Positions 20,409 to 29,011 of a DNA stretch of 64,000 nt are shown in pieces. A model generated the notes under the pieces. That model had not been told where the DNA came from. It searched no databases and saw nothing but the letters and a program-made list of their open reading frames with translations. The stretch is from Angustibacter luteus (GTDB lineage Bacteria; Actinomycetota; Actinomycetes; Actinomycetales; Angustibacteraceae). Positions within the stretch are counted from its first letter, which is position 1, and the number at the start of each line of letters is the position of its first letter. The DNA lies in the NCBI RefSeq assembly GCF_039541115.1, contig NZ_BAABFP010000002.1, forward strand, positions 1,185,420 through 1,249,419, read 5' to 3'. A program made the translations under genes and the position numbers.

Positions 20409-22646
20409 TCAGTGCTGCTGCGCGGGCAACCGCCGCTCGAGCGCCGCGGGCATCCACCAGTTGCGCCGTCCGAGCAGCGTCATCGCCGAGGGCAGCAGCA
20501 CGGCCCGCACGACGGTCGCGTCGATCAGCACCGCCACCGCCAGGCCGACGCCGAGCTGCTTGAACTCCAGCAGCGACAGCGTCCCGAAGATGCTGAACAC
20601 CCCGACCATGACGGCCGCCGCACTGGTCACGACCCCGGCGGACGACGTCACCCCGCGGGCCACCGCCACCTTGGTCGGCAGGCCGGAGTCGTGCGCCTCG
20701 CGGATCCGGCTGACGACGAACACGTGGTAGTCCATGGACAGGCCGAACAGCACCACGAACAGGAACAGCGGCAACCAGTCGATCACCACGCCACCGGACT
20801 GGAAGCCCAGCAGCTGGTGGCCGAGCCCGTGCTGGAAGACCAGCACCAGGACCCCGTAGGCCGCACCGACGGACAGCAGGTTCAGCACCACCGCGGTGGC
20901 CGCCACGACGACCGAGCGGAACGCGAACACCAGCACCACGAAGGTCAGGCCGAGGACGAACGCCATGACCCACGGCAGGTGAGCGCGCATCGACGAGGCG
21001 AAGTCCGCCGAGCCCGCGGTCGGACCGGTCACCAGGACCTGCGTGCCCGGGACCGACACGGCCGCCGCGAACGGCGGAACCAGCGTGTCCCGCAACGTGG
21101 TGAGGGACGCCTGCGCCGGCTTCCCGCTGAAGTCCCCGGTCATCGGGACGTCGATCGTCGCCGTCCGGCCGTCCGGTGCCAGCACGGGGTGGACGTCGTC
21201 CAGCCCGGTGAACTGCCCGGTGGCCCGGGCGTCGGCGACCAGGCCGGCCACCCCGGCGTCCAGCGCCTTGGCGTCCAGCGGCTGGTCGGAGTGCACGACC
21301 ACGGTGTGCGCGAAGCCGGTCTGCGGGAAGGCCGCCGTCATCGCGTCGTACGTCTTCATGATCGGGATGGAGCGGGGCAGCGAGTCCGCGCCGGCCTCGC
21401 CGGTGCGCATGCCCAGCGCGGGCAGGGCGAGCGCCACCATGGCCGCGCCGGCCAGCACCAGCGAGATGGCCGGGCGGTGCAGCACGACCCGCATCACGGC
21501 GGGCCAGAAGCGGCCCTCGCCGTCGGGGCGGCGCAGCCGGTGCACGAGCGGGATCCGCGGCCGGTCGACCTTGTCGCCGAACGCGGCGAGCATGGCCGGC
21601 AACGCGGTCAGCGAGCCGAGCACGGCCACCGCGACGACCAGCATCGTGCCGACGGCCATCGAGACGAACGTGGCGTCGCCGGACAGCAGCAGCCCCGACA
21701 TCGCGATGAACACGGCCAGCCCGGAGACCACGACGGCGCGGCCGCTGGTCTGCGCGGCGATCTCGATGGCGTCCCGACGACCGGCACCCTTCGCGCGCTC
21801 CTCACGAGCTCGGCGCACGTAGAACAGCGAGTAGTCGACCCCCACGGCCATGCCGATCAGCAGGATCACGCTGTTCAGCGAGTCCATCACCGGCACCACG
21901 TGCGAGACCAGGGCGCTCAGGCCGATCCCCGCCATCACGGCCGACAGCGCCAGGATCACCGGCACCCCTGCGGCGATGAGGGCGCCGAAGGTCAGGATGA
22001 GGATGCCCAGGGTGATCGGCAGGCTGAGCTTCTCGGCGCGCGAGAAGTCCTTGGACACCTGGCCGCCGATCGCCTTGTCGAGCGAGGCGTCACCGACCTG
22101 GTCGACGCGCAGGTCCGGGTGCGCCCCGGCCACGCCGGCGGTCACCGCCTGCACCGCGGGCACCTGGTCGGCGGCGACGTCGTACGCCGCGTTGCCGGTC
22201 TTGCCGTTCACGTTCAGCACCACCGGCAGCAGCGCGGAACGGCCGTCCGCCGAGCGCACCAGGTCGCCGACCTGGGACACCTGCGGCATCCCGGTGAGCT
22301 TGCTGCGCAGCTCGGTGCCGACCGCGGTCGCGGTCGCGGCGTCCAGGCTCCCACTGCGCGCCTGGACGAGGATCCGCTCGGTCGGGGTGGCCGGGTAGCC
22401 GGCCTGCTCGACGATCTTGTCGGCCTTGCCGGACTCCCCCGTGCCGGTCTCGGCGCCTTCCAGCAGGCGGGTGCCGGCCAGCTGGCCGCCGACGAACACG
22501 ACGGCGACGAACAGGAACCAGCCGATCAGGGCCTTGGCCTTGTGCCGGGTGCTCCACCGAGCGAGGGTCAGGACCACGCCGGCGGACGCCGGTCGCGGGG
22601 TGGGGTCGGACGGTTGGGTCTCTGCGGGTGCTGCGGTGAGCGTCAT
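20409..22646 (-). CDS. MMPL family (RND-like) membrane transporter
   Basis: 745 aa. Topology is typical of MMPL: one helix near residue 35, a large periplasmic-like loop, six helices (about 190-370), a second loop, and five or six helices to the end. Motifs include GMAVGVDYSLFYVRRAREE and FGLSMDYHVFVVSRIREAH, in which the buried Asp-Tyr pairs carry protons. Members export lipids, siderophores or drugs; the substrate here is unknown. It is divergent from a two-component system, a common arrangement for regulated MMPL exporters. Confidence 0.93.
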   Translation of the reverse strand: MTLTAAPAETQPSDPTPRPASAGVVLTLARWSTRHKAKALIGWFLFVAVVFVGGQLAGTRLLEGAETGTGESGKADKIVEQAGYPATPTERILVQARSGSLDAATATAVGTELRSKLTGMPQVSQVGDLVRSADGRSALLPVVLNVNGKTGNAAYDVAADQVPAVQAVTAGVAGAHPDLRVDQVGDASLDKAIGGQVSKDFSRAEKLSLPITLGILILTFGALIAAGVPVILALSAVMAGIGLSALVSHVVPVMDSLNSVILLIGMAVGVDYSLFYVRRAREERAKGAGRRDAIEIAAQTSGRAVVVSGLAVFIAMSGLLLSGDATFVSMAVGTMLVVAVAVLGSLTALPAMLAAFGDKVDRPRIPLVHRLRRPDGEGRFWPAVMRVVLHRPAISLVLAGAAMVALALPALGMRTGEAGADSLPRSIPIMKTYDAMTAAFPQTGFAHTVVVHSDQPLDAKALDAGVAGLVADARATGQFTGLDDVHPVLAPDGRTATIDVPMTGDFSGKPAQASLTTLRDTLVPPFAAAVSVPGTQVLVTGPTAGSADFASSMRAHLPWVMAFVLGLTFVVLVFAFRSVVVAATAVVLNLLSVGAAYGVLVLVFQHGLGHQLLGFQSGGVVIDWLPLFLFVVLFGLSMDYHVFVVSRIREAHDSGLPTKVAVARGVTSSAGVVTSAAAVMVGVFSIFGTLSLLEFKQLGVGLAVAVLIDATVVRAVLLPSAMTLLGRRNWWMPAALERRLPAQQH

Positions 22647-22755
22647 CGTGGTTCCCCTAGCTCGCGCCTCGATTGCTCAGCGGCGCAGTCGTTTTCGGAC
22701 ACCACCACCGTGGCCGCCGCGACCCCTGCGCGTCTGTCCGGGAAGCGCCCCAATG

Positions 22756-22773
22756 GGGGTAGGGGTAACCCCC
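22756..22773. promoter_or_regulatory. Direct and inverted G/C-run motif in the divergent MMPL / histidine kinase region
   Basis: Within the 187-bp divergent intergenic region, GGGGTA occurs twice in tandem (22756-22767) and is followed by ACCCCC (22768-22773), which pairs with GGGGGT at 22755-22760. It lies about 60 bp before the kinase start. A binding site for the LuxR-type regulator encoded just downstream is plausible. Confidence 0.45.
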
Positions 22774-22833
22774 GGTTCGATGTGGCGGCCAGCGTCATGG
22801 CGGCTCAGGGTCGCGGCTCCCTACGGTGGGTCC

Positions 22834-24090
22834 ATGCGCAATTCCTGGGGGTCGAGGACGTGGCTGGCACTGGCCTACGTCACGCTCGGCCTGCCCGTCG
22901 GCATCGTGACCTTCACGGTCGTGCTGGTCGGCCTCGCGCTCGGCATCGGCCTGCTGCCGCTCTTCGGCACCGGGGTGGTCGTGCTGGTCGCGACCGTCTA
23001 CACGGCGCGCGGGATGGCGGCCTTCGAGCGTGGCCGGGCGACGATGTTCCTCGGCGTACACCTGCCCGACCGCCCGCGGCTCTCGCCGGAAGGTGCGAAC
23101 GCCGGACGCCGGGCGTGGGCGCTGATCTCCTCGCGCGCATCGTGGAAGGAGATCGCCTACTGCCTGCTGATGCTGCCGATCGGCACGGTGTTCTACAGCC
23201 TGGCCGTGTCGGTCTGGGCGATCGGGCTGGCCGGCGTCCTGCTCCCCGCCTACGGGTTCGCGCTGCCCGGGGGCGAGGTCGTGACCTGGCTGCACTGGAC
23301 GCCGTGGCTCGAGGTCCTGGCGGGCTTCGGGATCGGCCTGCTGGCGCTGCAGCTCGCGCCGCTGCTGACCGTGGCGCTGGCCGACGCGCAGCTGGCGCTG
23401 GTCCGATCGCTGCTAGCGCCCAGCGGCGCCGAGGTGCTGCAGGCGAAGGTCTCCTCGCTCACCGAGTCCCGCGCCCGGGTGGTCGATGCGGCGGACGCCG
23501 AACGCCGCCGGATCGAGCGGGACCTGCACGACGGCGCGCAGCAGCACCTGGTGTCGTTGGCGATGAACCTGGGGATGGCCAAGGAGAAGATGGACTCCGA
23601 CCCCGAGGCGGCCCGCGAGCTGGTGACCCGCGCGCACCAGGAGGCCAAGGACTCGATCACCGAGCTGCGCAACGTGATCCGCGGTGTCTACCCGGCCGTG
23701 CTGACGGACCGCGGGCTGGACGCCGCGCTGTCCGCGCTGGCCGCGCGCTCCCCGGTCCCGGTGCGGCTCGACGTCCGCCTCTCGCGTCGCCCCGGACCGA
23801 CCGCCGAGGCCATCGCCTACTTCGTGGTCTCCGAGGCGCTCACCAACGTGGCCCGGCACTCCGGCGCCAAGCAGGCGTCGGTGCACGTCGAGCTGCGCGA
23901 GGACGCCACCGGCCGCGACCGCCTGCAGGTCGCGGTCGTGGACGATGGTCACGGCGGCGCCACGGAGGGGGCCGGCAGCGGCCTGACCGGCCTGCGGGAC
24001 CGCGTCCGCGCCGTGGACGGGACGTTCCAGCTGATCAGCCCCCAGGGCGTCGGCACGACGATTGCCGTGGAGGTGCCGTGCGAGTCGTGA
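22834..24090 (+). CDS. Sensor histidine kinase (NarL/DesK type, HisKA_3)
   Basis: 418 aa from the ATG at 22834. Two pairs of membrane helices (about 10-58 and 105-180) form a putative sensor domain, followed by the HisKA_3 phosphoacceptor (RRRIERDLHDGAQQHLVSLA, His232) and an HATPase_c domain with N-box SEALTNVARHSGAKQ and G-box GSGLTGLRDRV. It autophosphorylates and passes phosphate to the LuxR-type regulator whose gene it overlaps by 13 bp. The signal is unknown; membrane state is likely given the two short extracytoplasmic loops. Confidence 0.93.
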   Translation: MRNSWGSRTWLALAYVTLGLPVGIVTFTVVLVGLALGIGLLPLFGTGVVVLVATVYTARGMAAFERGRATMFLGVHLPDRPRLSPEGANAGRRAWALISSRASWKEIAYCLLMLPIGTVFYSLAVSVWAIGLAGVLLPAYGFALPGGEVVTWLHWTPWLEVLAGFGIGLLALQLAPLLTVALADAQLALVRSLLAPSGAEVLQAKVSSLTESRARVVDAADAERRRIERDLHDGAQQHLVSLAMNLGMAKEKMDSDPEAARELVTRAHQEAKDSITELRNVIRGVYPAVLTDRGLDAALSALAARSPVPVRLDVRLSRRPGPTAEAIAYFVVSEALTNVARHSGAKQASVHVELREDATGRDRLQVAVVDDGHGGATEGAGSGLTGLRDRVRAVDGTFQLISPQGVGTTIAVEVPCES

Positions 24091-24725
24091 TCGCCGAGGA
24101 CTCGGTGCTGCTTCGTGAAGGCATCATCCGGCTGCTGACGGACGCCGGGCTCGACGTCGTCGGCGCCGTCGACGAGCCGGAGGCGTTGCTGCGCAGCGTG
24201 GACGAGCTGCTGCCGGACATCTGCATCGTCGACATCCGGATGCCGCCGACGCACACCGACGAGGGCATCCGGGCCGCGCTGGTGATCCGCGCGCAGCACC
24301 CGGACGTCGCGGTGCTGGTGCTGAGCCAGTACGTCGAGGAGCGCTACGCCACCGACCTGATCGCCTCGGACACCCGCGGGGTCGGCTACCTGCTCAAGGA
24401 CCGGGTGGCGGACGTGCGCGAGTTCGTGGACGCCGTCCGGCGGGTCGGCGAGGGCGGCACCGCACTGGACCCCGAGGTGGTCTCCCAGCTGCTGGTCCGC
24501 AGCCGGCGCACCGACCCGCTCGGTGGGTTGACCCCGCGCGAGGGCGACGTGATCCGGCTGATGGCCGAAGGCCGCTCCAACCAAGGGATCGCGGCGGAGC
24601 TGGTGGTCAGCGAGGGAGCCGTCGAGAAGCACGTCAGCTCGATCTTCCTGAAGCTCGCGCTGCCGCCGGCCGACCAGGACCACCGCCGCGTGCTGGCGGT
24701 CCTGCGCTACCTGGAAGGTTCGTGA
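24078..24725 (+). CDS. LuxR-family response regulator
   Basis: 215 aa from GTG 24078, inside the end of the kinase gene. The receiver domain has acidic residues at EDS, the phosphoacceptor Asp52 (ICIVDIRMPP), and Lys in GYLLKDRV. The C-terminal LuxR/GerE helix-turn-helix (LTPREGDVIRLMAEGRSNQG ... AVEKHVSSIFLKL, about 150-205) is complete. The likely targets are the divergent MMPL gene and its own operon. Confidence 0.95.
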   Translation: MRVVIAEDSVLLREGIIRLLTDAGLDVVGAVDEPEALLRSVDELLPDICIVDIRMPPTHTDEGIRAALVIRAQHPDVAVLVLSQYVEERYATDLIASDTRGVGYLLKDRVADVREFVDAVRRVGEGGTALDPEVVSQLLVRSRRTDPLGGLTPREGDVIRLMAEGRSNQGIAAELVVSEGAVEKHVSSIFLKLALPPADQDHRRVLAVLRYLEGS

Positions 24726-25489
24726 TGACGGTCCACGACGCCCCGCAGCTGACCCAACCCGCCGACCCGCCACCGGCCGGCGGCAGCGCCCGACCGCTGC
24801 TGATCGGTCTGGGCATCGCGTTCGCGGTGCTCTCGATCGTCGCGGGCACGCTGAACGTGATCGGCTCCATCGGGCGGGACTCGGTGCAGCGCCAGGCCAG
24901 CTACCAGGGCATCCGGGTGGTCGACGTCGACGTGTCGGCCGAGTCGGTGCAGATCGTCGCCGGCCCGGACGACGTCACCCGGCTCGACCGCACCATCGGC
25001 TGGTCCCTGCAGAAGCCGAGCTTCAGCGAGCGGCAGGAGGGTGACCGGCTGGTCATCCGCTCGAGCTGCGGGATCACGTTCGGCCGCGGCTGCTCCGGCA
25101 AGGTGCGCCTCGTCGTGCCGGCCGACGTCCAGGTGCACGCGCACAGCTCGGGTGGTTACGTCGGGGCCACCGGGCTGTCCGGCCCGCTGGACCTCTCGTC
25201 CAGCGCCGGGCACGTGGAGGGCGTCCGGCTGGCGTCCGCCACCGTCGAGGCCGACTCGTCGGCCGGGTCGGTGTCGCTGACCTTCGCGGTCGCGCCCACC
25301 GACGTGAAGGCCACGGGCAGCGCCGGCTCGGTCGAGGTGCTGCTGCCACCCGGGGACGAGGCGTACCGGGTCGACGCGGGTTCCAGCGCCGGCTCCAGCG
25401 AGGTGTCGGTGCGGACCGACCCGGACTCGTCGCGGCGGATCGTCGCCCACTCCAGCGCTGGCTCGGTCGAGGTTTCTTACTCTGAGTGA
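24722..25489 (+). CDS. DUF4097-type membrane-anchored beta-helix protein
   Basis: 255 aa; GTG 24722 overlaps the regulator stop by 4 bp, and an ATG follows at 24725. One membrane helix (about 25-50) precedes a repeated beta pattern with Ser-Ser-Ala-Gly turns (LDLSSSAGHVEGVRL, VEADSSAGSVSLTF, VDAGSSAGSSEVSV, VAHSSAGSVEVSYSE), the DUF4097 right-handed helix type. Similar proteins often accompany LuxR-type two-component systems and membrane-stress genes. Its exact role is unknown. The stop lies at the edge of an abrupt AT-richer region. Confidence 0.85.
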   Translation: MMTVHDAPQLTQPADPPPAGGSARPLLIGLGIAFAVLSIVAGTLNVIGSIGRDSVQRQASYQGIRVVDVDVSAESVQIVAGPDDVTRLDRTIGWSLQKPSFSERQEGDRLVIRSSCGITFGRGCSGKVRLVVPADVQVHAHSSGGYVGATGLSGPLDLSSSAGHVEGVRLASATVEADSSAGSVSLTFAVAPTDVKATGSAGSVEVLLPPGDEAYRVDAGSSAGSSEVSVRTDPDSSRRIVAHSSAGSVEVSYSE

Positions 25490-25625
25490 TCACTTGTGTG
25501 CATGGTGGTCGGATTTTGCATCGATTGAGCACTCTTCGTAACGAACCTTCTACTCAGAGGCGTTTTGCTGACAAGATCTCATTACCGGCTCGGGGCAATG
25601 CCCGGGCCCTTGTCATGGAGTGAAC
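25490..25625 (+). promoter_or_regulatory. AT-richer leader with nested hairpins before the SpeD-like gene
   Basis: This gene-free stretch has clearly lower GC than its surroundings. It holds the 8-bp palindrome GTGATCAC (25486-25493) and inverted arms CTCTGAGT / ACTCAGAG (25480-25487 and 25552-25559). A probable RNA structure closes it: TGACAAG (25569-25575) pairs with CTTGTCA (25609-25615), enclosing a small GGGC-AAT-GCCC hairpin (25593-25603). The outer stem ends right at the ribosome site GGAG (25617-25620), so it could control translation. No known riboswitch class was matched by eye. Confidence 0.5.
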
Positions 25626-25967
25626 GTGCGCGACCTCGCCCCTGAGATCTGTCGGCAACGCCTCGTCGTCGAGGGGTTGTGCCATGCCCCCATCGACGCG
25701 CCGGAGATCCGCAAGTACCTCTCTGAGCTCTCGTCGGCGATCGACATGGTCTCGCTGATGGAGCCGGTGACCCACCAGTCCCCGCTCTACGGCTGGGCCG
25801 GCTGGATCCACTGGGAGACCTCCGGCGCGCACTTCTACGCCTGGGACGTGCCGCGCCTGTTCTTCAGCGTCGACATCTACGCCTGCAAGCCCTTCTCCGC
25901 CCAGACCGTGCTGGACCTGACGCAGGCCTCGTTCGACGCCTACGACCTCGTGCACAAGGAGTTCTGA
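25626..25967 (+). CDS. SpeD-like (S-adenosylmethionine decarboxylase fold) protein
   Basis: 113 aa from GTG 25626, chosen because GGAG sits 5 bases upstream; GTG 25620 is in frame but has no ribosome site. It resembles the small bacterial SpeD: RQRLVVEGLCHAP at the first strand, YGWAGWIHWETSGAHFYAW in the processing/active-site region and FFSVDIYACK at the end of the core. In Thermotoga SpeD, Ser63, His68 and Cys83 act; here Ser66, His69 and Cys87 are candidates, but the usual Glu-Ser cleavage pair reads Glu-Thr-Ser. It may be a pyruvoyl decarboxylase on SAM or an amino acid, or a non-processed derivative. Its stop overlaps the next ATG by 1 base. Confidence 0.75.
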   Translation: MRDLAPEICRQRLVVEGLCHAPIDAPEIRKYLSELSSAIDMVSLMEPVTHQSPLYGWAGWIHWETSGAHFYAWDVPRLFFSVDIYACKPFSAQTVLDLTQASFDAYDLVHKEF

Positions 25968-26737
25968 TGGCGGCTCGGTACTGGATGCACTTCGACGCGC
26001 GGGGCGACCTGCTGGAGTCGGCGCGCCAGTGCGAGGCCGAGGTGTTCCACCGGTGGTTCGGCAACACCCGCGCCGAGCTCGACGAGGAGTACGGCAGCTA
26101 CGAGGGTGACTCGATCTTCCTCGTCCTGGCCGACGAGGCGGACGAGGTGGTGGCCGCCGTCCGCCTCATCGCCCCCGGCCCCTCCGGCTTCAAGACCCTG
26201 GACGACGTCGCCCGAGCCCCGTGGCAGGTGGACGGCGTCCGCTCGGCCGCAGCGGCGGGGCTCGACCTGTCCCGCACCTGGGAGGTCGGCACCCTCTGCG
26301 TCCGTCCCGGTGTGGCCGGCAGCAGCCGCCTCTCGCTCGCGCTGTACCACGGCCTCATGGTGGTGGCCCAGGTCAACGGCATGACCTCGTTCATCGCGGT
26401 GCTGGACGAACGGGTCCGCCGGCTCCTGGCCTCGGTCGGCATCACCACGCGAGCGCTGCCGGGGACGAGCACCGCCCCCTACCTCGGCTCGGCCCGGAGC
26501 ACGCCGGTCTACTCGCACTTCGCCGCCATGCTGGACGCCCAGCGCCGGGACCTGCCCGACGCCTACCGGCTGGTCACCCTCGGCATCGGGCTGGACGGCA
26601 TCGTCGTCCCCGACCGCGAGTCGTTCCGCCGACGCCAACCCGAGCTCGTGCTGGACCTGGCACCGCTGGAGGCCGGCGAGGCCCTGGACGCGGACCGGCT
26701 CGTCAGCGAGCAGCTACCCGATCCGCGGCGCGGGTAG
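25967..26737 (+). CDS. Autoinducer-synthase-like (LuxI/GNAT fold) acyltransferase
   Basis: 256 aa, TGATG-coupled to the SpeD-like gene. The LuxI-type order is visible: an aromatic/acidic N-terminal loop (EAEVFHRWFGNTRAELDEEY, with Phe27 and Trp30), strand SIFLVLADEADEVVAAVRLI with Arg66, then TWEVGTLCV (Glu106) where LuxI proteins read E-x-S-R-F-x-V, and the helix-turn LYHGLMVVAQVNGMTSFIAV ... RRLLASVGITTRALP. It has a longer C-terminus than LuxI (about 200 aa). LuxI joins SAM and an acyl chain to make homoserine lactones. The adjacent SpeD-like gene suggests that SAM chemistry is shared, but the product is unknown. Confidence 0.72.
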   Translation: MAARYWMHFDARGDLLESARQCEAEVFHRWFGNTRAELDEEYGSYEGDSIFLVLADEADEVVAAVRLIAPGPSGFKTLDDVARAPWQVDGVRSAAAAGLDLSRTWEVGTLCVRPGVAGSSRLSLALYHGLMVVAQVNGMTSFIAVLDERVRRLLASVGITTRALPGTSTAPYLGSARSTPVYSHFAAMLDAQRRDLPDAYRLVTLGIGLDGIVVPDRESFRRRQPELVLDLAPLEAGEALDADRLVSEQLPDPRRG

Positions 26738-29011
26738 GACCTTGCCACGGGTGGGCGGCACCTGCGTCGCCCACCGGCGCACCCAGGGATCCACGTCGCT
26801 CAGCGGCATGGGCCGAGCGACGTGGTACCCCTGCAGGACGTCGACGCCCATCTCGACGAGGGCGAGCGCCGTCGCCTCGTCCTCGACCCCCTCGGCGACC
26901 AGCCGCATCCCCATGGCGTGCGCCATGTTGGTCGTCGTCTCGACGATGAGCCGGGTCCGTTCGTCGGTCAGCAGGGTCGCGACGAACGAGCGGTCCATCT
27001 TGAGCTCCTGGACCGGCAGGTCGCGCAGGTACGCCAGCGAGGAGAACCCCGTGCCGTAGTCGTCGATGGCGACCTGGACCTGGTGCTCTCGCAGCTCGTA
27101 GAGGGCGTCCCGGGCGCGCTCGGGATCGGACAGGAACGAGTCCTCGGTCACCTCGATCAGCAGCCGGTCCCCCGGCAGCCCCGCCTCCTCTAGGGCGAGG
27201 AACAGGTGCGGCAGCAGCTGGCCACCCAGCAGCTCCACCGGCGCGCAGTTCATCGCCACCCGGAAGGTCCAGCCGCTGGCGGCGAAGGCCCGGGCGTCGC
27301 GGACGGCCTGTCGGGCGACCCACTCGGACAGCATCGGCATCAGGCCCGCGCGGCGCGCGTCCGGCAGGAACTCCATCGGCCCGAGCAGCCCCTCGCTGGG
27401 ATGCTGCCAGCGCACGAGCGCCTCCATCGCGATGAGCCGCCGCGTCAACGCGTCGACCTGCGGCTGGTACCACAGCACCAGCTGGCCCTGCGTGATCGCG
27501 GCCCGCAGCTCCTCGCTGCGCTGCAACCGCTGCCGGGTGAAGACCTCCTGGGAGGGGTCGTACAGCAACGCCCCCGCCCGGGCCTGCTTCGCCTCGTACA
27601 TCGCCACGTCCGCGCGGCGGAGCAGGTCGGTCGCGGAGCGGTCCCCGTCCCGGCGCACGGTGATGCCGATCGAGGCCCGGATGGCCAGGTCGAGGTTGTC
27701 GATGTGCACCGCCGCGAGCAGCACCTGGCGCAGCTCCTGGGCGAGCTCGAGCAGCGCGAGCTCGTCGTCCCCCTGCGCCAGCACGGCGAACTCGTCGCCG
27801 CCGAGGCGCGCGACCAGCACGTCGTGCGGCAGCGTCGACTGCATGCGGTGCGCGACGGTGCGCAGCACCGCGTCGCCGGTGCCGTGACCCAGGCTGTCGT
27901 TGATGTCCTTGAAGCCGTCCAGGTCGAGCAGCATGAAGGCCAGCGGGTCCTGGCGGGCCAGACCCTCGTCGGTCGCGGTGAGCACGGCCCGCCGGTTGGG
28001 CAGCCCGGTCAGCTCGTCGGTCATGGATAGCCGGAGCGACTCCGCTGCGCCTCGGGCCTCCTTGAGGGCGAGCGTCATGCGACCCCCGGCGCACACCAGG
28101 GTGACGATGGCCGGGACGGTGATGTACCAGCCGATCGTGCCCCCGGGGTGCAGGACGAGGGCCAGCAGCGCGACGGACGCCGCCGCGATCAGCATCCGCG
28201 AGCGCTGCAGGTCGGGCTTGGGGGCGAGCTCGGCGCGCTCGCGACGGCAGGCCGAACCGACCAGCAGCGCGAAGGCCCCGCCCCAGAGCACGTCCAGCAG
28301 CACGCTCGAGGAGTACGAGTCGGCCTTCAGGGACAGCATGAAGCTGGAGTCCGCGGCGGCGAGCGCGAGGAAGGCCACCGCCAGGCCGACCGTGCGCCGG
28401 GACCGGGTGCGGTGCCGCAGCATCATCTGCGCCAGCACGACGGTGGCCAGGACCAGGTCGATCAACGGGTACAGGATCGCCAGCAGCAGGGTGAGCCCGC
28501 CCCGGTCGAAGGTTCCGGCGAGCGGCTTGAGCACGAAGAAGCTCGCGACGCAGACCGCCGCACCGCAGACGACCGCGGCATCGAGCCCGAGTGCGAGGGC
28601 AGGAAGTCGCGGCCGCGGCACGTCCAGCAGGAGGAAGGCGGCCATCCCCAGGTAGGAGGTGAGGTAGAAGATCTCTCCCGGCGCCGGGAAGGTCACGACG
28701 GAGACGGAGACGGCCTGGCTGGCGCTCACCATGGCCGAGCCGGCAGCCCACAGCGTGACGCCGGCCACCAGCACGAGCAGGGCGGTGCGGCGGCGGGGGT
28801 CGTTCCCGGCGACGACGAGCAGCCGGGTGAGCTGCAGCAGGAAGAACACCGTCAGGGTGACCACCAGGGCCGCGCGGATCGCCGGGCCGTCGGCGGATCC
28901 GGGGAGTACCAGGGTGGATCCGGTCCCGAGCGCCGCGACCGTGAGCGCGGCGGCGCCGAGCCGCCGTTGGGTCACGTCGGCCCGGGGCGTGGTCGCGCGG
29001 CCGTCTGCCAC
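26714..29011 (-). CDS. Membrane GGDEF-EAL protein (cyclic di-GMP synthesis/breakdown)
   Basis: 765 aa. Eight to ten membrane helices fill the first 300 residues (a MASE-like sensor). A GGDEF domain follows with SMTDELTGLPNRR, DLDGFKDINDSLGHGTGD and the intact active-site loop RLGGDEFAVL. The EAL domain has MEALVRW, MNCAPVELLG, the DDYGTGFSSLAYLRDLP loop and KMDRSFV, also intact. Both activities are therefore possible. It is convergent with, and overlaps by 24 bp, the autoinducer-synthase-like gene. Confidence 0.95.
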   Translation of the reverse strand: MADGRATTPRADVTQRRLGAAALTVAALGTGSTLVLPGSADGPAIRAALVVTLTVFFLLQLTRLLVVAGNDPRRRTALLVLVAGVTLWAAGSAMVSASQAVSVSVVTFPAPGEIFYLTSYLGMAAFLLLDVPRPRLPALALGLDAAVVCGAAVCVASFFVLKPLAGTFDRGGLTLLLAILYPLIDLVLATVVLAQMMLRHRTRSRRTVGLAVAFLALAAADSSFMLSLKADSYSSSVLLDVLWGGAFALLVGSACRRERAELAPKPDLQRSRMLIAAASVALLALVLHPGGTIGWYITVPAIVTLVCAGGRMTLALKEARGAAESLRLSMTDELTGLPNRRAVLTATDEGLARQDPLAFMLLDLDGFKDINDSLGHGTGDAVLRTVAHRMQSTLPHDVLVARLGGDEFAVLAQGDDELALLELAQELRQVLLAAVHIDNLDLAIRASIGITVRRDGDRSATDLLRRADVAMYEAKQARAGALLYDPSQEVFTRQRLQRSEELRAAITQGQLVLWYQPQVDALTRRLIAMEALVRWQHPSEGLLGPMEFLPDARRAGLMPMLSEWVARQAVRDARAFAASGWTFRVAMNCAPVELLGGQLLPHLFLALEEAGLPGDRLLIEVTEDSFLSDPERARDALYELREHQVQVAIDDYGTGFSSLAYLRDLPVQELKMDRSFVATLLTDERTRLIVETTTNMAHAMGMRLVAEGVEDEATALALVEMGVDVLQGYHVARPMPLSDVDPWVRRWATQVPPTRGKVLPAPRIG

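Follow-up and report, generated by a model that had tools for sequence, protein, structure and literature searches.

The stretch of DNA analyzed here, called the window throughout, comprises 64,000 nucleotides of the Angustibacter luteus contig NZ_BAABFP010000002.1. It encodes a small protein with the fold of S-adenosylmethionine (SAM) decarboxylase (AdoMetDC), here called SpeD-like, directly followed by a LuxI/FeeM-like acyltransferase, here called LuxI-like. An initial annotation, made from the letters alone, placed these two open reading frames (ORFs) where we also read them, with one base of TGATG common to both. Beyond those two genes, we find a third partner, an adjacent gene for a membrane GGDEF-EAL protein. 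The locus is a real and conserved signaling cassette, one that is probably uncharacterized. Its features are collected in Table 1.

Table 1. Features of the locus, in window positions.
Feature	Position	Strand	Remarks
SpeD-like (AdoMetDC-fold) gene	25626..25967	+	113 aa from GTG 25626; TGA at 25965-25967
LuxI/FeeM-like acyltransferase gene	25967..26737	+	256 aa; ATG at 25967-25969
GGDEF-EAL gene, N-terminal multi-transmembrane region	26714..29011	-	convergent; proposed receptor/effector
TGATG, stop/start overlap of one base	25965..25969	+	translational coupling inferred
AAGGAG, Shine-Dalgarno-like	25956..25961	+	inside SpeD-like 3' end, 5 bases before LuxI-like ATG; by eye
Ser68 codon	25821..25823	+	equivalent of pyruvoyl-forming Ser63 of T. 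maritima AdoMetDC; 51/51 aligned sequences
Tyr73 codon	25836..25838	+	at position of catalytic His68 of AdoMetDC; 51/51
Cys89 codon	25884..25886	+	equivalent of Cys83; 51/51

GTG 25626 is the likelier start of the SpeD-like gene, rather than GTG 25620, because GGAG at 25617-25620 sits 5 bases 5' of it, as judged by eye, and because the relative at locus L009 starts at the same residue. Residues of the SpeD-like protein are numbered from GTG 25620, where the ORF is first open. The AAGGAG element could serve the LuxI-like gene as a ribosome-binding site. At the other end of the pair, the tail of the GGDEF-EAL gene overlaps the end of the LuxI-like gene by 24 bases.

The two genes are kept together across distant bacteria. 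Specifically, relatives of the SpeD-like gene were collected from 84,980 species, each represented by one genome, with two peptide patterns that miss divergent members. Of 129 confirmed SpeD-like relatives, the 80 best supply the loci considered below, and the genes of these loci were called by a home-made codon-score or longest-ORF script in place of a standard gene finder. A LuxI-like gene lies directly downstream, on the same strand, in 72 of the 80. Measured to the start codon nearest the SpeD-like stop, the gap between the two genes is -11 to +16 nucleotides in 65 of the 72 pairs (-1 in 21, +1 in 23); the remaining gaps are 169-172 nucleotides in five, 49 in one, and 91 in one. Sources of the pair include Actinotalea, Blastococcus, Modestobacter, Geodermatophilus, Micromonosporaceae, Mycolicibacterium sphagni, and Acidimicrobiia, as well as one Acidobacteria metagenome-assembled genome (MAG) and Saccharibacteria MAGs. 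The 72 paired loci rule out chance neighbors. The initial annotation had let its proposal stand or fall with conservation of the pair in other genomes, and the pair is conserved. Its distribution is nonetheless patchy. Whole-genome searches, each including the A. luteus genome, find the LuxI-like gene in 7 of 99 relatives, in 8 of 396 genomes at the level of the order, and in 10 of 394 at that of the class. The SpeD-like gene is present in 8 of the 394 genomes of the class, and 7 of these 8 also possess a LuxI-like gene.

The SpeD-like protein has the small AdoMetDC fold, as first suggested from its motifs. It scores 28.5 bits against the Pfam family AdoMet_dc (PF02675), above the cut-off of 25, and the family matches 51 of 51 aligned SpeD-like members (alignment A7, 50 of the 80 loci plus the window) at E<=0.01. 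An AlphaFold2 model made with these 51 sequences has a mean predicted local distance difference test (pLDDT) score of 96.3, and its best match in the PDB is T. maritima AdoMetDC (1vr7; Z 14.4, root-mean-square deviation (rmsd) 2.4, 106 residues). In profile searches of the family against the PDB, AdoMetDC entries appeared at E 0.21-0.66 in the first and were absent from the second; the RNA-binding proteins that topped the matches are rejected as chance, given that AlphaFold and the fold search return AdoMetDC. Searches with phmmer of the SpeD-like and LuxI-like proteins against the PDB yielded nothing useful, and a six-frame PF02675 search of the A. luteus genome at E<=0.001 listed neither the window gene nor any other match.

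The active site of the SpeD-like family is conserved and altered. Five residues are invariant in all 51 sequences: Ser68, Gly69, His71, Tyr73, and Cys89. Ordinary SpeD proteins carry SHxxxHxW, whereas the window family carries SGxxxYxW. In ordinary actinobacterial SpeD proteins the sequence is ESHxSxHTWPE or similar, and in an intermediate relative, L169, it is ESGAFVYTWD. The two motifs, together with the L169 sequence, fix the register, which pairs Ser68 with Ser63 of AdoMetDC, Tyr73 with His68, and Cys89 with Cys83. The pyruvoyl-forming serine and the catalytic cysteine are kept, also in the distant relatives L042 and L169 and in three plasmid copies. His68, reported to be required for both processing and catalysis in AdoMetDC (PMC10407285, seen in part), is replaced by tyrosine throughout. 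Tyr73 could take over the role of this histidine.

Phylogeny sets the family apart. In a SpeD tree, the 51 rows make up one clade (support 98/92), and a very long branch separates that clade, together with L042 and L169, from ten rows of ordinary actinobacterial SpeD; the tree uses few columns, its rows are without characterized SpeDA or SpeDC proteins, and the program warned of long branches meeting. A canonical role in spermidine synthesis is not favored. Specifically, His68 is lost, and Spermine_synth has one marginal match in the A. luteus genome, on another contig, at 23.4 bits against a cut-off of 22.9.

There is precedent for a change of substrate in this fold. SpeD homologs called SpeDA and SpeDC have switched to arginine or ornithine (Li et al. 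2023, PMC10407285), and the reasoning in the part of that article available to us takes Ser63, His68, and Cys83 as all conserved in them. The window protein shares the AdoMetDC fold, Ser63, and Cys83 with SpeD, SpeDA, and SpeDC; it differs in having tyrosine for His68, which leaves the window family outside the three-residue rule, and glycine for His64.

A concrete hint at the job of the SpeD-like protein comes from loci in which another enzyme stands in its place. Three genomes (G049 and G092 of one genus and G621 of another family) contain a LuxI-like gene and have no SpeD-like match anywhere in the genome. In two of them (loci L014 and L015), a group II decarboxylase dependent on pyridoxal phosphate (PLP) lies upstream of the LuxI-like gene. 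In the third (L138), an apparent operon begins with such a decarboxylase and continues with a GGDEF-EAL gene and then the LuxI-like gene. Against PF00282, whose cut-off is 27 bits, the L014, L015, and L138 enzymes score 183, 189, and 168. The L014 and L015 enzymes share only 31-32% identity with that of L138, a divergence suggestive of separate acquisitions. The LuxI-like proteins of the PLP loci nest among SpeD-linked ones in a quick tree without bootstrap, which allows one or two events. Solved relatives of the L014 decarboxylase, the one of the three that was searched, are aromatic, DOPA, tryptophan, and desferrioxamine-pathway decarboxylases. Because a PLP amino-acid decarboxylase takes the place of the SpeD-like gene, the job common to both partners is likely the decarboxylation of an amino acid. 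This swap is the strongest hint that the partner of the LuxI-like enzyme probably acts in that way.

The initial annotation had also raised the alternative of a non-catalytic partner. In its full form, the SpeD-like protein would be a dead enzyme and, as a subunit of the LuxI-like synthase, would have a regulatory or structural role, and the synthase alone would make an acyl-homoserine lactone (AHL) or an N-acyl amino acid. The tyrosine at position 73 in all 51 sequences speaks for such a subunit, the gene overlap suggests fixed stoichiometry, and some LuxI-like genes do occur without a SpeD-like gene. Set against these points are the pyruvoyl serine and catalytic cysteine, invariant across the 51 sequences and present in the distant relatives, and the replacement of the SpeD-like gene by a PLP decarboxylase in two genera. 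We regard a dead subunit as unlikely.

The second protein has an autoinducer-synthase-like fold, as its order of conserved residues had first suggested. Its AlphaFold2 model (mean pLDDT 92.6), made from an alignment of 45 members (A6, the window protein and those of 44 of the 72 pairs), ranks FeeM first (2g0b; Z 17.2, rmsd 2.6, 178 residues), ahead of LasI (1ro5; Z 16.3, 181 residues) and BjaI (5w8a; Z 15.7, 196 residues); general GNATs trail by little, at about Z 12-15.4. Z values within 1 are treated as tied, as are those of FeeM and LasI; Foldseek ranks BjaI first, and the VIA-align lists leave families outside the lists possible. With FeeM, LasI, and BjaI at the top of the fold list, an ordinary GNAT identity, which the initial annotation had named as a possible refutation, is not favored. 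Profile searches place the protein at the margin of known families. The family profile finds LasI as its best PDB match (E 0.025). The window protein itself reaches no curated cut-off and is drawn to FeeM (16.9 bits versus 27 required by Pfam), to an exosortase acyltransferase model, and to TraI. No Pfam Autoind_synth match is listed for it at E<=1, while 6 of the 45 members match that family at E<=0.01 (best 3.9e-05).

Residues tell a similar story of partial likeness. Invariant in all 45 sequences are Glu23, Phe27, Tyr42, Arg66, Lys76, Asp147, and Tyr172-Leu173. Of the LuxI-type residues named at the outset, Phe27 and Arg66 therefore hold up in every sequence; position 106, given as glutamate, is aspartate in 40 and glutamate in 5, and Trp30 is found in only 7. 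In LasI, the SAM pocket comprises Arg23, Phe27, and Trp33, and a Ser103-Arg104 beta-bulge marks SAM binding (PMC1282579, in the part available). Among these, the LuxI-like family keeps only Phe27. Arg23 is replaced by Glu23 in 45 of 45 (by ungapped extension of the alignment), Trp33 by Asn33 in 44 of 45, and the bulge by Ala/Gly108 (44/45) followed by Thr/Ser109 (44/45). The available text of PMC8188788 held no such residue information, and that of PMC4234381 held nothing on the SAM pocket. Judged from charge alone, Glu23 in place of arginine would favor a cationic amine over a carboxylate.

These residues bear on a possibility inherent in the initial proposal, namely, that SAM is still the substrate of the SpeD-like protein and that decarboxylated SAM is what the LuxI-like enzyme acylates. 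The AdoMetDC fold, at Z 14.4, is in line with it, as is the fact that AHL synthases, the nearest folds along with FeeM, use SAM. However, the LasI pocket residues are not kept, His68 is lost from the SpeD-like proteins, and PLP amino-acid decarboxylases stand in for SpeD; to our knowledge, no PLP amino-acid decarboxylase acts on SAM. A SAM-based route strikes us as quite improbable. In the pathway as first imagined, an acyl chain was moved either to a SAM-derived amine or to a decarboxylated amino acid. That the two enzymes serve a single pathway is supported, and of the two acceptors it is the latter that now appears the better option.

The third partner would tie the pair to signal transduction. 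By a family hidden Markov model (HMM), 53 of the 80 loci have a GGDEF-EAL gene no more than 800 bp away, and all 53 are among the 72 pairs; elsewhere in the fetched DNA of the same 80 loci, only 3 GGDEF-EAL matches exceed 200 bits. The gene is convergent downstream in 26 of the 53, on the same strand upstream in 23, on the same strand downstream in 2, and divergent upstream in 2. Linkage has held while gene order changed. GGDEF and EAL motifs are both found in 50 of the 53 proteins, two of the other three being cut by contig ends, and, ahead of the GGDEF domain, a simple scan counts 6-10 hydrophobic segments in 49 of the 50 and 3 in the remaining one. Comparison of the N-terminal regions by hhalign relates the Actinotalea-type, Geodermatophilaceae, and Acidimicrobiia groups (probability 79-96%); the Actinotalea-type group and the L106/L110 group reach 99.9%, and L106/L110 against the other two only 1-9%. 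In 149 genomes of the order, 9 places score above 100 bits for this sensor region. A LuxI-like gene adjoins 8 of them, and the ninth, in G017, is a solo; the query (A8) was built from LuxI-linked proteins and is biased to LuxI-linked places. The GGDEF-EAL gene also adjoins the LuxI-like gene in 8 of 8 examined loci that lack SpeD. The same sensor region is carried by a GGDEF-EAL protein at L187:6239-8581 that resembles a receptor solo, with no LuxI-like, SpeD-like, or PLP decarboxylase gene called nearby.

In seven other loci, a histidine kinase with multiple transmembrane segments follows the LuxI-like gene. Six belong to Saccharibacteria/Patescibacteria (L076, L080, L092, L103, L112, and L119) and one to M. 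sphagni (L101). An HMM built from four kinase N-termini and run on all ORFs of the 80 loci finds these seven and one further gene in L103. Pfam, applied to 4 of the 7 kinases, places HisKA and HATPase over the cut-off in 4/4 and HisKA_7TM in 2/4 (L101 and L119). A response-regulator-like gene, confirmed by Pfam in L103 only, is divergent upstream in the six Saccharibacteria/Patescibacteria loci. Thus, the sensor type beside the pair is exchangeable, being a GGDEF-EAL protein or a multi-transmembrane histidine kinase. A single sensor fold common to both kinds of N-terminus was considered and dropped, as their comparison gave no signal. Linkage of a synthase gene to a sensor gene is a hallmark of quorum sensing, and here it takes the form of a GGDEF-EAL gene in 53 of the 72 pairs and a histidine kinase gene in 7 more.

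Linkage to sensors also weighs on a quite different interpretation, in which the product would be a structural aminolipid, either resembling ornithine lipids or belonging to the envelope, with the cyclic di-GMP (c-di-GMP) connection reflecting control of the envelope or of exopolysaccharide instead of signaling. Matches to a PEP-CTERM/exosortase acyltransferase model (TIGR03694) in 31 of the 45 LuxI-like proteins at E<=0.01 lend it some weight, the window protein standing far under the cut-off (29.4 bits versus 111.95), as do matches in 5 of the 45 to Acetyltransf_5, a domain of OlsB-type enzymes. Its difficulties are that the linkage recurs with two unrelated membrane sensor types, that synthases of signals and of N-acyl amino acids head the fold list, and that no second lipid acyltransferase was seen by eye in the gene lists, although no aimed search was made. 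We hold a structural lipid to be very unlikely.

Our preferred interpretation, to which we assign a probability of roughly 60%, is that the module both makes and senses a small-molecule signal, probably a fatty amide of an undescribed kind. The SpeD-like protein would be a pyruvoyl-dependent decarboxylase with a changed substrate, most likely a free amino acid in place of SAM. The LuxI/FeeM-like enzyme would then transfer an acyl group from acyl carrier protein or coenzyme A to the resulting amine, producing an N-acyl amine that may be diffusible. The membrane region of the GGDEF-EAL protein, or of the histidine kinase in Saccharibacteria and M. sphagni, would detect this N-acyl amine, and the output would be an altered c-di-GMP level or, via a phosphorelay, an altered phosphorylation state. 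Given the SpeDA/SpeDC precedent and the relatives of the PLP enzyme, basic amino acids (arginine, ornithine, and lysine) and aromatic amino acids are natural candidates for the substrate.

Several observations count against this interpretation. First, His68 is tyrosine in every SpeD-like sequence, which makes self-processing uncertain. Second, the PLP swap rests on 3 genomes in 2 genera and on one or two events, and the LuxI-like loci L010, L012, and L013 (G051 and G036) and L137 (G414) have neither a SpeD-like gene nor a PLP decarboxylase in the fetched stretch. A further LuxI-like locus without a SpeD-like gene, L139 (G551), stands at a contig end. Third, the pair is not always together, as had been suggested for checking: 8 of the 80 SpeD-like loci lack a LuxI-like gene, and some LuxI-like genes lack SpeD. 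The genomes of two of the 8 unpaired loci, L081 and L089, hold a pair elsewhere (L068 and L056). Two more, from Bdellovibrionota MAGs (L113:9965-12626 and L060:9795-12357), have an aminotransferase-like gene instead of LuxI. Fourth, the GGDEF-EAL and kinase sensor regions show no detectable homology, and weaker matches to the sensor region (E<=0.001) occur in 31 of 149 genomes, while the LuxI-like gene is in only 7 of the 99 relatives. Finally, seven Micromonosporaceae pairs have no recognized membrane sensor adjoining; a Ser/Thr-kinase-like gene, confirmed by Pfam in one, follows in six of these seven. In five pairs (L064, L067, L095, L115, and L122), the sequence stops at the LuxI-like gene or shortly beyond it, too early for a sensor to be judged, and L095 retains only the end of a GGDEF-EAL gene.

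Should the small-molecule interpretation be right, several consequences follow. The two-enzyme cassette would define a class of N-acyl-amine signals, and actinomycetes and Patescibacteria would gain a LuxI-fold signaling route that operates without LuxR. A natural source of ligand would be named for a family of membrane GGDEF-EAL proteins. A clade of pyruvoyl decarboxylases with an altered catalytic residue, histidine to tyrosine, would be marked out, and it is directly testable. A broader idea is that the cassette represents a widespread and undescribed signal class, made by a dedicated decarboxylase (pyruvoyl or PLP) and by LuxI-fold N-acylation without the LasI SAM pocket, received by a membrane c-di-GMP enzyme or kinase, and possibly carrying messages between epibiont and host lineages. 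We put the chances of this broader idea at slightly under even. The epibiont-host element arises because Actinomycetota and Saccharibacteria both possess the system, and at least one member of the Saccharibacteria lives on an actinobacterial host (PMC7567580, in the part available).

The window family resembles known systems in some respects and departs from them in others. Analogous to LuxI-type AHL synthases such as LasI and BjaI, it has the GNAT fold, Phe27, Arg66, a W-D/E motif in beta4, and a synthase gene beside a sensor gene. It differs in the loss of Arg23, Trp33, and Ser103-Arg104, in its decarboxylase partner, and in that the A. luteus genome has no LuxR with an Autoind_bind domain. 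FeeM, an N-acyl amino acid synthase, is the solved fold of highest Z (tied with LasI); unlike FeeM, the window protein comes with a decarboxylase and a sensor, and it lies under the Pfam FeeM cut-off.

Adjacency of LuxI-like and kinase genes in Candidate Phyla Radiation (CPR) genomes is already known and not new. Specifically, Bernard et al. (2020, PMC7567580) described 18 such adjacencies between LuxI homologs and sensory kinases as candidate AHL systems. The Saccharibacteria loci studied here have the same arrangement, a likeness that may or may not extend to the genes themselves. The CPR proteins were read there as AHL synthases, and the word decarboxylase is absent from the main text as available. 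The premise that homoserine-lactone signaling is not established in actinomycetes is now partly out of date, as AHL production has been found to need an actinomycete luxI homolog (Handel et al. 2026, PMC13136126). The solo luxI genes of Actinomycetota described in that report, insofar as we could consult it, are like ours in being LuxI-family genes without a LuxR partner. Going by description, their neighbors set them apart: iscS, mnmA, etf, secondary-metabolism regions, or, in Salinispora, sasA, tcrX, and drrA. Its available main text contains no match for decarboxylase, SpeD, GGDEF, or diguanylate, and that of PMC10407285 lacks the words acyltransferase, homoserine lactone, and operon. Our searches of the open-licence PMC literature turned up no description of a LuxI-like gene partnered by a SpeD-like or PLP decarboxylase, or by a GGDEF-EAL protein.

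We note that more distant relatives of the SpeD-like protein appear in other settings. No relative was found in the viral contigs and phages searched. Plasmids yielded three distant relatives, with no LuxI-like, GGDEF-EAL, or PLP-decarboxylase match by family HMMs in the fetched 16 kb around them; a relative of the LuxI-like protein was sought on plasmids and not found. A divergent SpeD-like group (L172:8004-8360, L173:8001-8357, L174:8001-8363, and L042:948-1316), with motifs such as DSGISLYVW and ESGIALYTW, occurs on plasmids of Acaryochloris, Halioglobus, and Nostoc and adjoins a GGDEF-EAL gene in L042. The Acaryochloris plasmid copy has a GNAT gene directly upstream. SpeD homologs of one actinobacterial family (L158 and L162-L168) read DESHVS(I/V)HTYADDGK, apparently without the proline that Li et al., in the accessible part of PMC10407285, give as the mark of true AdoMetDC. 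These homologs are possible arginine decarboxylases.

Further variation is seen at individual loci. In the Bdellovibrionota loci L113 and L060, the SpeD-like gene is followed by a protein without a Pfam match, Rossmann- or nicotianamine-synthase-like by eye, and then by the aminotransferase-like gene, which Pfam assigns to class I/II in L113. In Saccharibacteria, L116:3662-7560 has a SpeD-like gene without LuxI, beside a convergent gene weakly like LPG_synthase_C, under the cut-off; downstream, a multi-transmembrane protein and a histidine kinase are recognized by eye. In one genus, a pirin-like gene precedes the LuxI-like gene. The SpeD-like gene lies between them in L011:2710-5140 and is missing from L013:8231-10222, which looks like loss in place. 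Finally, upstream of the pair in the window, positions 22417-25489 contain a sensor kinase (Sensor, HisKA_3, HATPase), a response-regulator-like gene, and a DUF4097-like protein that scores just under the cut-off.

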